Source: Candidatus Mediterraneibacter intestinipullorum
GTDB taxonomy: Bacteria > Bacillota > Clostridia > Lachnospirales > Lachnospiraceae
Assembly (NCBI GenBank): GCA_019118665.1
Contig: DWYM01000062.1
Span: 1-37,394, forward strand
Reading direction: 5' to 3'
Length of the DNA stretch: 37,394 nucleotides
The notes beneath the pieces are model-generated. The model had not been told where the DNA came from, did no database searches, and was given only the letters and a program-made list of their open reading frames with translations. Each line of letters starts with the position of its first letter. Position 1 is the stretch's first letter. Positions 12,500 to 15,425 of the stretch are shown piece after piece. A program made the position numbers and the translations under genes.

Positions 12500-12826
12500 T
12501 CACTTCAACTGTTTTTTATAATCGTTTCCCCATTGCTCCATTGCGTTAAGGATCGGGCGCATGGATTCTCCCAGGGGCGACAGGGCATATTCTACTCTTG
12601 GGGGCACTTCCGGATAGACGGTCCGCGTAATGATCCCATCCTCCTCCATGGAACGGAGGCTGTCTGTCAGGACTTTCTGGCTGATTCCCTCCAGATCTTT
12701 TTTCAGTTCGTTAAACCGCCAGGGGCGTGAGCGAAGATTTCTTATGATCAGCAGCTTCCATTTGCTTCCGATCAGCTGTACAGTGGTCGCCACCGGACAC
12801 GCAGGTAATTCTTCTTTTGTAAGCAT
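12500..12826 (-). CDS. HxlR-family transcriptional regulator
   Basis: Small winged-helix DNA-binding protein (108 residues) of the HxlR group, whose characterised members sense quinones, aldehydes or redox stress. It has the conserved N-terminal cysteine (Cys10 in PACPVATTV), which is the sensing residue in proteins such as YodB. The HTH core includes LIGSKWKLLIIRNL, RPWRFNELKKDL and ISQKVLTDSLRSMEEDGI, and the wing carries RVEYALSPLGES. The start follows a GAGGTG ribosome site on the minus strand. The gene is divergent from the sirtuin at 13123, with an operator-like palindrome between them. The actual signal is unknown. Confidence 0.92.
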   Translation of the reverse strand: MLTKEELPACPVATTVQLIGSKWKLLIIRNLRSRPWRFNELKKDLEGISQKVLTDSLRSMEEDGIITRTVYPEVPPRVEYALSPLGESMRPILNAMEQWGNDYKKQLK

Positions 12827-12965: not shown

Positions 12966-12983
12966 AGTTACTTTTTTGTAACT
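12966..12983. promoter_or_regulatory. HxlR-type operator palindrome
   Basis: A perfect inverted repeat, AGTTAC-TTTTTT-GTAACT, lies in the divergent hxlR/sirtuin gap. It resembles the TTAC...GTAA sites reported for HxlR regulators. It ends 22 nt upstream of the sirtuin -35 and lies about 43 nt upstream of the hxlR -35, so it could serve both genes. Binding is inferred from form and place. Confidence 0.6.
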
Positions 12984-13004
12984 ACGATACAAAATTGTGC
13001 GTAC

Positions 13005-13033
13005 TTTACGGACAAATGGAGCCGGAATATAAT
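13005..13033 (+). promoter_or_regulatory. Promoter of the sirtuin gene
   Basis: TTTACG (13005-13010), a 17-nt spacer and a consensus TATAAT (13028-13033). The weak -35 would suit activation or de-repression by the regulator bound just upstream. Confidence 0.6.
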
Positions 13034-13122: not shown

Positions 13123-14052
13123 ATGTTTTTAAAAAGAGTGAGCACAGAGACCGCCGGGGCTTCCCGGGAACAGGTCAAAAGGCTGAAAAGAGAATTGGAA
13201 AGCGCGGATGCGGTGGTCCTTGGCGCGGGCGCAGGTTTGTCTGCGGCAGCGGGGATGCAGTATGACGGAGCGCGGTTTAAACGGTATTTTGGAGATTTTC
13301 ATGAGAAATACGGATTTCGGGACATGTATTCCGGGGGATTTTATCCTTATGAAACCCTGGAAGAACACTGGGCATATTGGAGCAGATACATTTTTATCAA
13401 CCGTTATATGGATGCTCCTGAGCCGGTGTATCATGGACTGTATGCTCTGGTGAAGGATAAGGATTATTTTGTCATTACTACAAATGTGGACCACTGCTTT
13501 CAGAAGGCGGGCTTTGACAGGCAGCGCCTGTTCTACACACAGGGCGATTATGGACTGTTCCAGTGCTCTGCCCCCTGTCATAGCAGTACATATGACAATG
13601 AAGAGACTGTCCGGCAGATGGTCCTGGCTCAGGGCTATGAGATCGATGGAGGGGGCGGGCTCTTCCTCCCGGACGGTGTAAATGCGAAAATGGCGATCCC
13701 CTCAGAGCTTGTTCCCCTCTGCCCGAAGTGCGGGAAACCGATGAGCATGAATCTGAGGGCGGATGATACCTTTGTGCAGGACCGAGGATGGTATGCAGCA
13801 GCAGAACGCTATCAGGAATTTCTCCGGCGTCATAGCGGCCTGCATATCCTGTATCTGGAGCTTGGCGTGGGTGGGAATACGCCGGGAATCATCAAGTACC
13901 CCTTCTGGCAGATGACAGCGCATAACCCGAAGGCCGTGTATGCGTGCGTCAATTATGGGGAGGCGGTCTGCCCGCAGGAGATTGACAGTCAGTCGATCTG
14001 CATTGACAAGGATATACGTTCTTGCTTATCTCTGATAAATTCCGGGGCATAA
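13123..14052 (+). CDS. SIR2-family protein, class M-like (possible protein ADP-ribosyltransferase)
   Basis: NAD-dependent sirtuin-fold protein of 309 residues. The Rossmann NAD site is GAGAGLSAAAG (34-44). The NxD motif is TTNVDHCFQ (Asn121, Asp123). A zinc ribbon is suggested by Cys148/Cys152 (FQCSAPC) and Cys200/Cys203 (CPKCG). The residue at the place of the deacetylase catalytic histidine is Gln140, in TQGDYGLFQC. As recalled from the literature, this Asn/Asp/Gln trio with the same spacing is the hallmark of the macrodomain-linked SirTM enzymes, which ADP-ribosylate a lipoyl carrier protein. Here no macrodomain, GcvH-like or lipoate ligase gene is adjacent, so the substrate is unknown. 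The start follows AGGTGA. HxlR control is likely. Confidence 0.85.
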   Translation: MFLKRVSTETAGASREQVKRLKRELESADAVVLGAGAGLSAAAGMQYDGARFKRYFGDFHEKYGFRDMYSGGFYPYETLEEHWAYWSRYIFINRYMDAPEPVYHGLYALVKDKDYFVITTNVDHCFQKAGFDRQRLFYTQGDYGLFQCSAPCHSSTYDNEETVRQMVLAQGYEIDGGGGLFLPDGVNAKMAIPSELVPLCPKCGKPMSMNLRADDTFVQDRGWYAAAERYQEFLRRHSGLHILYLELGVGGNTPGIIKYPFWQMTAHNPKAVYACVNYGEAVCPQEIDSQSICIDKDIRSCLSLINSGA

Positions 14053-14225
14053 CATTTTCCGAGTCTATCAGGATTATTTAACGAGGAAATCCTTTCATCG
14101 CTGATGGAGAAAAATACAGCTATGATAGCACAGAAACGAGGGGAAATCAAATCTTTTTTTCTTATCGGCTTCGGTGTACACTGGATAGAGGAGTCTGATG
14201 TACAGAGAAAAGAGGGATATTGATA

Positions 14226-15425
14226 ATGAATAGGAAAGAAATACTCGAGATCAGAAAGCAGTTCACACCGGCAAACTGCGCGATCACCCGGATCTGCGGC
14301 TGCTATGTGGATCACGAAAAAACAAAAAAGATGGAGTCAAAGGATGCCTTTCTTTCCCTGCCGGAAGAAGAAGCATTCAAATATTTTGATATATTTAAAA
14401 AGACATTGTCCGGAACAGTAGGAAAAAATATGCTGAACCTGGAATTTCCCCTTGACGCGGAGATGCCCGGGGGGACTCAGGAATTTCTCCTTAAGCTCAG
14501 GGACAGCAAACTGGAAGACGATATGCTCCTGGAAGAATTTTACGACAAAGTGATCGCTACATATGACTATGCGGAGAATTATTATATTATCCTCATCCAT
14601 GCGATGTACGATATCCCGGGGAAATCTTCGGACGGTCTGGAGATGTTTGACGCTTCGGACGAGGTGTATGAGTACCTGCTCATGAGCATTTGTCCGGTAT
14701 CCCTTTCCAAGGCAGGGCTGAGTTACAACGCGGAGGATAACCGTATCCAGGACCGCATCCGTGACTGGATCGTGGACATGCCTGCAAACGGTTTCCTTTT
14801 CCCGGCATTTAATGACAGGGGCACGGATCTGCACAGTATCCTGTATTATACGAAGAAATCCGAGGACCTGCAGCCGGAGCTGATCAGCCAGCTCCTGGGA
14901 GCGGGGATGCCCATGTCCGCTGATACGCAGAAGGAGACATTCCAGATGATCATTGAGGATACTCTGGGAGAGGACGGAGACTATGAGACGGTCCGCAATA
15001 TCCACGAGACCCTCAATGACCTGATCGAGGAGCATAAGGAAGAGCCGGAACCGCTTGCGCTTGATAAGACGGAGATGAAGAAAATCTTTGAGCAGAGCGG
15101 TGTGGAGCCTGAGAAAATGGAGAGCTTTGACCGGAATTTTGAGGAAAATGCCGGAGAGAAAGCTTCCCTGCTGGCGGCGAATATCGCGGAGACGAGAAAA
15201 TTCAATATCGAGACACCGGATGTGATCATCAAGGTGAATCCGGACAGGGCGGATCTGGTGGAGACCAGGGTCATTGACGGAAGGCAGTGTCTGGTCATCC
15301 CGGTGGATGATCATATTGAAGTAAATGGGATCAATGTGAGGACGATCAGAATGAAAGAAAACATTGCTCTGTCCGGTGCGGACAGGGAACAGGATGGCGG
15401 AGAAGGAATTCCGTTTGAGGAATAA
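14226..15425 (+). CDS. DUF4317 family protein, function unknown
   Basis: Soluble, acidic protein of about 399 residues from the ATG at 14226; an in-frame TTG at 14220 would add two residues. The spacing from AGAGGGA favours the ATG. The opening (NRKEILEIRKQFTPANCAITRICGCYVD) matches my memory of the DUF4317 family found across Clostridia. No membrane segment, signal peptide or catalytic motif is evident. The C-terminal quarter contains TPDVIIKVNPDRADLVETRV. It is a single-gene unit with a strong terminator after it. No promoter was convincing in the 170-nt gap upstream. I do not assign a function. Confidence 0.8.
   Translation: MNRKEILEIRKQFTPANCAITRICGCYVDHEKTKKMESKDAFLSLPEEEAFKYFDIFKKTLSGTVGKNMLNLEFPLDAEMPGGTQEFLLKLRDSKLEDDMLLEEFYDKVIATYDYAENYYIILIHAMYDIPGKSSDGLEMFDASDEVYEYLLMSICPVSLSKAGLSYNAEDNRIQDRIRDWIVDMPANGFLFPAFNDRGTDLHSILYYTKKSEDLQPELISQLLGAGMPMSADTQKETFQMIIEDTLGEDGDYETVRNIHETLNDLIEEHKEEPEPLALDKTEMKKIFEQSGVEPEKMESFDRNFEENAGEKASLLAANIAETRKFNIETPDVIIKVNPDRADLVETRVIDGRQCLVIPVDDHIEVNGINVRTIRMKENIALSGADREQDGGEGIPFEE

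Follow-up and report, generated by a model that had tools for sequence, protein, structure and literature searches.

A predicted class M sirtuin beside a divergent HxlR regulator in Candidatus Mediterraneibacter intestinipullorum, and a Zn-Macro gene on another contig

The locus considered here raises the question of what a class M sirtuin (SirTM) modifies, and what reverses the modification, when none of its known partner genes is encoded beside it. The window, by which the whole analysed stretch of 37,394 nt is meant (contig DWYM01000062.1), carries a sirtuin-like gene that was read in a first-pass annotation as an orphan of the SirTM type, with an unknown target and eraser. The reading favoured below, to which a probability of roughly 0.6 is given, is that the gene encodes a working SirTM writer that has been split from a Zn-Macro eraser on contig C6, is controlled by an HxlR regulator and acts on a target other than GcvH-L.

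Table 1. Positions of the features discussed (window coordinates unless a locus or contig is named).
Feature	Position	Strand	Basis or remark
HxlR-family winged-helix regulator, divergent	12500..12826	-	Pfam HxlR PF01638, 110.5 bits (cut-off 20.8)
Candidate HxlR operator	12966..13004	.	AGTTAC-N6-GTAACTA (12966-12984), then a stretch ending GTGCGTAC
Sigma-70-like promoter match before SirTM	13005..13033	+	TTTACG-17-TATAAT; consensus match only
SirTM (class M sirtuin, P0001), 309 aa, predicted NAD-dependent protein ADP-ribosyltransferase	13123..14052	+	sequence, fold and residues
Key residues of P0001 (SpySirTM counterpart)	N121 (Asn118), V122/D123 (Ala119/Asp120), Q140 (Gln137), R212 (Arg192), G248VGGNTP254 (GVGx[NT]TP), N277 (Asn258); zinc cysteines C148/C152/C200/C203		SpySirTM active site as given in passages of PMC4518038
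DUF4317 protein	14220..15425	+	syntenic neighbour, thought not to be part of the system
Zn-Macro (P0002), predicted protein-ADP-ribose hydrolase	L034:663-1532 (contig C6)
Mutator-family (IS256-like) transposase remnant	L034:1-663
Second odd sirtuin	L002:1441-2181 (G000:C114)		Pfam SIR2, 91 bits
Tandem SirTM arrays	L093:6259-8941 (G224:C9), L094, L095, L096, L097, L098, L099, L044, L045, L046, L049
Short SirTM fragments	G188:C8, G080:C12, G063:C222, G142:C52, L043:3147, L145:5406 and others
Loci with ACGX peptide and SirTM	L037, L038, L041, L129, L150, L154, L164, L170, L177, L189, L202, L212, L213, L220, L221 and others

Sequence, fold and active site of the window sirtuin

The open reading frame begins with ATG and has exactly the boundaries listed in Table 1. 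When its product, P0001, was compared with all PDB chains using phmmer, the best match was SpySirTM (5a3a; E = 2.8e-63), followed by Mfs1, a fungal fusion protein (8rsn; E = 1.8e-24). Only two further chains matched at E<=1, both weakly, and neither is a sirtuin. The AF2 model (24 sequences; pLDDT 88.9, pTM 0.85) gives the same ranking, with a TM of 0.82/0.88 and an E of 1e-29 against 5a3a and with Mfs1 as next best, while canonical sirtuins among the 50 matches listed reach E = 3e-9 or worse and a query TM of about 0.5.

Each element of the published SpySirTM active site has a counterpart in P0001 (Table 1), and four cysteines stand where the zinc site is expected. In the phmmer alignment N121, D123 and Q140 pair with chain positions N128, D130 and Q147 of 5a3a, which, with the offset of 10 fixed by N118, are the published N118, D120 and Q137, so that the SirTM-like residue spacing described in the first-pass annotation is recovered. 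Its further statement that these three residues replace the deacetylase pattern also holds: Q140-G141 occupies the position of the HG motif of classical sirtuins, glutamine rather than histidine being aligned at the active site, and SirTMs are the closest proteins by sequence and by fold. N121, D123 and Q140 are invariant in 63/63 main-clade sequences, the window SirTM included, and R212 is retained in 62/63. Together with a dN/dS of 0.20 relative to the nearest relative, genome G209 (306 codons), which indicates purifying selection, this conservation argues that the pattern is not due to chance. With glutamine for the histidine of HG, the N/D/R set, and the GVGx[NT]TP motif and Asn258 equivalents all present, P0001 is, on sequence criteria, a class M sirtuin rather than part of a macro-linked operon. 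Judged by its residues, it is most likely an ADP-ribosyltransferase rather than a deacylase, in agreement with the possibility raised in the first pass.

A Zn-Macro on another contig

The first-pass annotation had noticed none of the usual partners (macrodomain, GcvH-L, lipoate ligase) near the SirTM gene, and genome searches and tblastn gave the same result: no SirTM-type macrodomain gene adjoins P0001, and a macro remnant in the window was rejected, the best tblastn match of P0002 there having an E of 0.085. The description of the gene as an orphan with an unknown eraser is therefore apt for the window and not for the genome, since the search for a SirTM-linked macrodomain that the first-pass annotation had proposed returned one Macro-family match, on contig C6 (G000:C6) and not on the SirTM contig. 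The protein concerned, P0002, has the features that define SirTM-type Zn-Macros in passages of PMC11490716, namely NAAN (NAAN132), a Cx4HxC zinc loop (at 141), Dx3H (at 150) and an N-terminal extension. It scores 347.6 bits against the NCBIfam protein-ADP-ribose hydrolase model (cut-off 272), and its top PDB match is MorMacro (8rsi; E = 1.3e-86), followed by SauMacro (5kiv). Its true start probably lies further downstream, because the alignments with most homologues begin only at about residue 30. Genes for an Rrf2 regulator, a PNPOx-4Fe-4S flavoprotein and an OpuBC/OpuA-type transporter follow in a row, and a transposase remnant lies directly upstream, near the contig end (Table 1). The eraser is thus probably encoded in the genome, on C6.

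The same arrangement is found in G209 (99% complete), where the SirTM locus reads pflB-pflA-HxlR-SirTM-DUF4317, with no macro, and a different contig carries macro-Rrf2-PNPOxFer4-OpuBC-OpuA; the separation of the two genes therefore seems older than the window species and G209. A divergent Fur-family gene is located upstream of the G209 macro, in the place of the transposase remnant beside P0002. The two macros are 89% identical (dN/dS 0.13). P0002 is also 78-82% identical to macros of three genomes of the same genus (G222, G233 and G212), where the adjoining SirTM is of a type that shares just 41-52% identity with P0001. Because these are, that of G209 aside, its closest macros, the original writer of P0002 may, on sequence grounds, have been another sirtuin, since lost. 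In other genera, macros 68-78% identical to P0002 are located near main-type SirTMs (L128, L129, L130, L133, L134 and L135).

Relatives were named from the best 80 of 584 confirmed SirTM matches in a scan of GTDB genomes. Among these best 80, at least 62 loci have a Zn-Macro gene no more than 2 kb from SirTM, a lower bound because several loci end near SirTM (e.g., L178, L200 and L217); of the 18 others, 15 have a macro match somewhere in the genome, at E<=1e-60 in 12 cases. Within 5 kb of SirTM in the same 80 loci are PNPOx-Fer4 (27), radical SAM enzyme (13), nitroreductase (13) and Rrf2 (9) genes. On the SirTM tree, which has 128 rows, P0001 and its G209 counterpart form a sister pair (100*) surrounded by SirTMs that are paired with a macro. 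Loci without a macro are spread over the tree, the 25 such rows outside the ACGX group (a count that omits six ACGX-labelled rows also lacking a macro) requiring 19 changes, compared with a shuffled mean of 23.1 and a value as low in 6/500 shuffles. Because of this spread, and of the frequency with which a macro accompanies SirTM, the absence of a local macro from the window looks derived.

Across 200 genomes of the family, SirTM is present in 92, Zn-Macro in 88 and both in 82, i.e., Zn-Macro occurs in 82/92 SirTM genomes versus 6/108 others (Fisher 8e-37); the cut of E<=1e-40 removed 17/109 genomes with weak or fragmentary SirTM matches and 45/133 genomes with Zn-Macro matches. In the genus sample, 33/41 genomes have a SirTM match, and the 31 with a strong Zn-Macro all fall within those 33. 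SirTMs of Lachnospiraceae, and Zn-Macro/SirTM pairs without GcvH-L, are already described in passages of PMC4518038 and PMC11490716.

Several other arrangements were seen in the survey. Divergent SirTM paralogues that share 31-37% identity with P0001 stand in tandem, two or three to an array, in 11 loci (Table 1), with an Rrf2 gene adjoining in 9/11. Among 26 copies of this class, Gln140 is replaced by Glu in 11, the GVG motif lacks TP in 11 and Arg212 is lost in 11. Six family genomes (G027, G058, G102, G118, G159 and G195) have divergent copies only, among the SirTM matches listed, and no strong Zn-Macro, and the tandem paralogues could possibly represent a pair of active and altered sirtuins that operates without a zinc eraser. 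In five loci of the same genus (L082, L086, L090, L092 and L100), SirTM is followed by another recurrent neighbor, a DUF5131 protein sharing 65-66% identity with the one in L047. The IMG/VR viral collection contains eight SirTM loci, of which only L226 and L227 resemble P0001 closely along most of the protein (best segment 60% and 71% identical, respectively); in both, SirTM is at or near a contig end, perhaps in the host flank of a provirus.

The divergent HxlR gene and its candidate control site

The first-pass annotation had pointed to an HxlR regulator divergent from SirTM, and this gene proved to be a recurrent partner, an HxlR gene lying within 5 kb of SirTM in 35 of the best 80 of 584 loci. 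The window protein also matches the RrpB model (120.5 bits), under its cut-off of 175. The 296-bp region between the divergent genes is 88% identical to that of G209 (250/285 aligned positions) and contains 7 promoter-like matches, compared with a shuffled mean of 2.3. The match before SirTM begins at the base directly after the candidate operator (Table 1).

GTAACTA or its complement is present in 26/51 regions (250 bp each) upstream of SirTM-linked HxlR genes, compared with a mean of 1.6 and a maximum of 6 in first-order Markov samples, for a motif that was picked after the sequences had been viewed. In 20 of the 26 regions GTAACTA is followed by GTGCNTAC, and the fuller palindrome GTTAC-N4-9-GTAAC is found in 9/51 (shuffled mean 0.04). 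The location of the palindromic site directly before the promoter match fits control of SirTM by HxlR, which, as far as the sequence indicates, probably regulates the gene from this site.

Taken together, P0001 would transfer ADP-ribose from NAD+ to a partner protein, an activity assigned from homology, active-site identity and fold, and would probably be incapable of deacylation because Gln140 replaces the catalytic His. It would act as writer in a SirTM/Zn-Macro pair, the genes of which became separated; the Zn-Macro is present on C6, from where it would serve as eraser in trans. HxlR would control transcription of SirTM at the palindromic site next to the promoter and, given this control, the mark would probably be laid or lifted upon a redox or electrophile signal; redox control is suggested by the behavior of HxlR relatives. 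For the target, the best guess is a protein like those that accompany the pair in relatives, i.e., a redox, thiol or flavin protein.

Candidate targets and comparison with known systems

Some relatives encode a cassette composed of a divergent HxlR, an ACGX-repeat peptide, a radical SAM/SPASM enzyme, a nitroreductase, PNPOx-Fer4, Zn-Macro and SirTM, the content of which varies, some loci lacking some of the genes and others, such as L154 and L041, being complete. The radical SAM/SPASM enzyme belongs to TIGR04340, the 'ACGX system' (616-619 bits; cut-off 400), and precursor ORFs, identified by direct reading of their ACGSACGAGDKPEEKPA-like repeats, are located upstream of its gene. In the loci with both peptide and SirTM (Table 1) the enzyme is almost always encoded, whereas HxlR, nitroreductase, PNPOx-Fer4 and Zn-Macro are found in part of them. 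A putative conserved small protein, 'c11', was rejected, being an antisense frame of the ACGX peptide.

It could be proposed that SirTM and Zn-Macro act on the ACGX peptide and that the window is a reduced relic whose sirtuin has switched target. The maturase, rSAM_ACGX, is encoded in 24/200 family genomes; SirTM is present in 21 of these 24 versus 71/176 others (Fisher 1.3e-5), and the two genes lie within 5 kb of each other in 14/24, counting same-contig positions among the SirTM matches listed. The window HxlR also speaks for this proposal: on a tree of 51 rows it falls in a clade with 11/12 ACGX-flagged HxlRs, a figure resting on an ORF-based flag that missed the peptide-bearing L202, and the other HxlR type is separated from this clade with an SH-aLRT of 99. 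Since its HxlR is of the ACGX-linked type, the window locus could be a reduced descendant of the cassette. However, the window SirTM groups apart from the ACGX-linked SirTMs on the SirTM tree, which counts against simple descent. TIGR04340 was not found in the window genome (G000) or in G209, and matches in the window or C6 were unconvincing (best E 0.15 for the enzyme and 0.43 for the peptide). Remnants of rSAM_ACGX, nitroreductase or ACGX peptide in the window, C6 and the two G209 loci were rejected, the best match (E = 0.046) being a short, chance-like one of the ACGX peptide in L126. Moreover, the peptide ORF occurs in just 12 of the best 80 of 584 loci and the enzyme in 3/41 genus-sample genomes, three of the 24 ACGX genomes lack SirTM, and gene linkage is not modification. 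The proposal is accordingly regarded as improbable for the window, if still the most serious competitor of the split writer/eraser reading.

A broader version, in which SirTM and Zn-Macro of gut Clostridia reversibly ADP-ribosylate the cysteine-repeat ACGX peptide, modified by its radical SAM enzyme, as the counterpart of GcvH-L, with the window as a split, reduced descendant of the cassette, is put forward tentatively and with slightly more doubt. By analogy, the cassette may be suggested to parallel the extended operon, uniting under HxlR control a writer, an eraser and flavin oxidoreductases with a sulphur-bearing carrier and the enzyme that modifies it. Among the papers listed from the open literature, none tied ACGX/TIGR04340 to ADP-ribosylation, or SirTM to radical SAM enzymes or HxlR. 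The ACGX peptide is nevertheless a concrete candidate and may be a long-sought target, although its enzyme was not found in the window genome; it would, if so, have the role that lipoyl-GcvH-L has in staphylococci.

It is quite unlikely that P0001 is a decaying leftover of the loss of a local macro. Fragments of SirTM are frequent in relatives, and several short C-terminal ones (covering about residues 229-305), located beside or away from Zn-Macro genes (Table 1), indicate repeated decay of the gene; in addition, SirTM has diverged faster than any other gene in the comparison with G209, at 80% amino acid identity versus 90% for MarR, 93% for DUF4317, 96% for PflA and 98% for both HxlR and PflB, which could reflect relaxed constraint. 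Against decay stand the intact ORF, the retained active-site residues, the dN/dS given above, the conserved intergenic region and the retention of Zn-Macro in both the window genome and G209.

The target established elsewhere, lipoylated GcvH-L, is the sole known SirTM substrate according to passages of PMC4518038 and PMC11490716, and the window SirTM might by the same token modify a GcvH or GcvH-L encoded elsewhere in the genome, as in Staphylococcus and Streptococcus. This is very improbable. In the genome, which is 83% complete, so that genes scored as absent may lie in missing sequence, there is no match to GcvH (PF01597) or to an LplA/LipB-fold lipoate ligase (PF21948), and hence neither of these extended-operon components. 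GcvH was likewise detected at 0 of the best 80 of 584 loci when up to 7 kb, as far as the contig extended, was searched by tblastn; the six queries were canonical GcvH proteins, so that a divergent GcvH-L might have escaped them. In the 200 family genomes the two genes are not associated, full-length GcvH (E<1e-25; 27 genomes) occurring in 13/92 SirTM genomes versus 14/108 others (p = 0.84) and any match (88 genomes, 65 of them above the Pfam cut-off) in 40/92 versus 48/108 (p = 1.0). In addition, MorMacro, which comes from a minimal pair, is inactive on GcvH-L, as stated in a passage of PMC11490716. Lipoyl-GcvH-L was rejected as target on the genome, locus and family evidence, and GcvH-L is unlikely to be modified by the window SirTM; the doubt about it voiced in the first-pass annotation was thus justified. 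The lack of GcvH-L is not in itself new, because carrier-free pairs, those of Lachnospiraceae included, had been described.

Least probable of all is an ordinary sirtuin deacylase, for which a weak resemblance to the Sir2 deacylase models of Pfam and NCBIfam and the general sirtuin fold could be cited, since the catalytic His is absent, the Pfam SIR2 score is below threshold (17.9 bits; cut-off 24), SirTMs are the best matches by sequence and fold, and the genome encodes a separate canonical-looking sirtuin (L001) with TQNID and HG. A genome-wide SIR2 search listed two other loci and not P0001. The second odd sirtuin of Table 1 has TRRIAG for TQNIDG and KG for HG, and so lacks the usual Asn and His.

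The window system can thus be taken as a known one, the SirTM/Zn-Macro system, in a split and probably HxlR-controlled form. With SpySirTM and SauSirTM (Rack et al., 2015; 5a3a), as portrayed in passages of PMC4518038, P0001 shares the class, QG for HG, the N/D/Q/R set, GVGxNTP, the zinc cysteines and, for SpySirTM, the fold. In contrast to their extended operon, no GcvH-L, LplA2, OYE or LLM was found beside P0001, the macro is not adjacent and a divergent HxlR gene is found instead. ACGX systems are clustered in some relatives with HxlR, Zn-Macro and SirTM, but rSAM_ACGX was not found in the genome of the window. The fungal fusion Mfs1 (8rsn), for which a redox role is proposed in a passage of PMC4518038, consists of the same two domains in one protein, whereas here they are encoded by two separated genes. 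The minimal pair of Methanobrevibacter oralis, described in passages of PMC11490716, likewise combines a writer and a zinc eraser without a lipoyl carrier, and its MorMacro (8rsi) is the solved structure closest to P0002; in the window genome, however, writer and eraser are on different contigs, HxlR adjoining the former and Rrf2 and a PNPOx-Fer4 flavoprotein the latter. While carrier-free SirTM/Zn-Macro pairs were already known, in this family too, the separation of the genes and the HxlR site are new, as is, most importantly, the neighborhood evidence on candidate targets. In Lachnospiraceae the pair is unconnected with GcvH. Its frequent neighbors are HxlR, Rrf2 or a flavin/Fe-S protein, and in part of the family it is linked to a small peptide with cysteine repeats for which a dedicated radical SAM enzyme is encoded; together these contexts provide a short, testable list of candidate targets.
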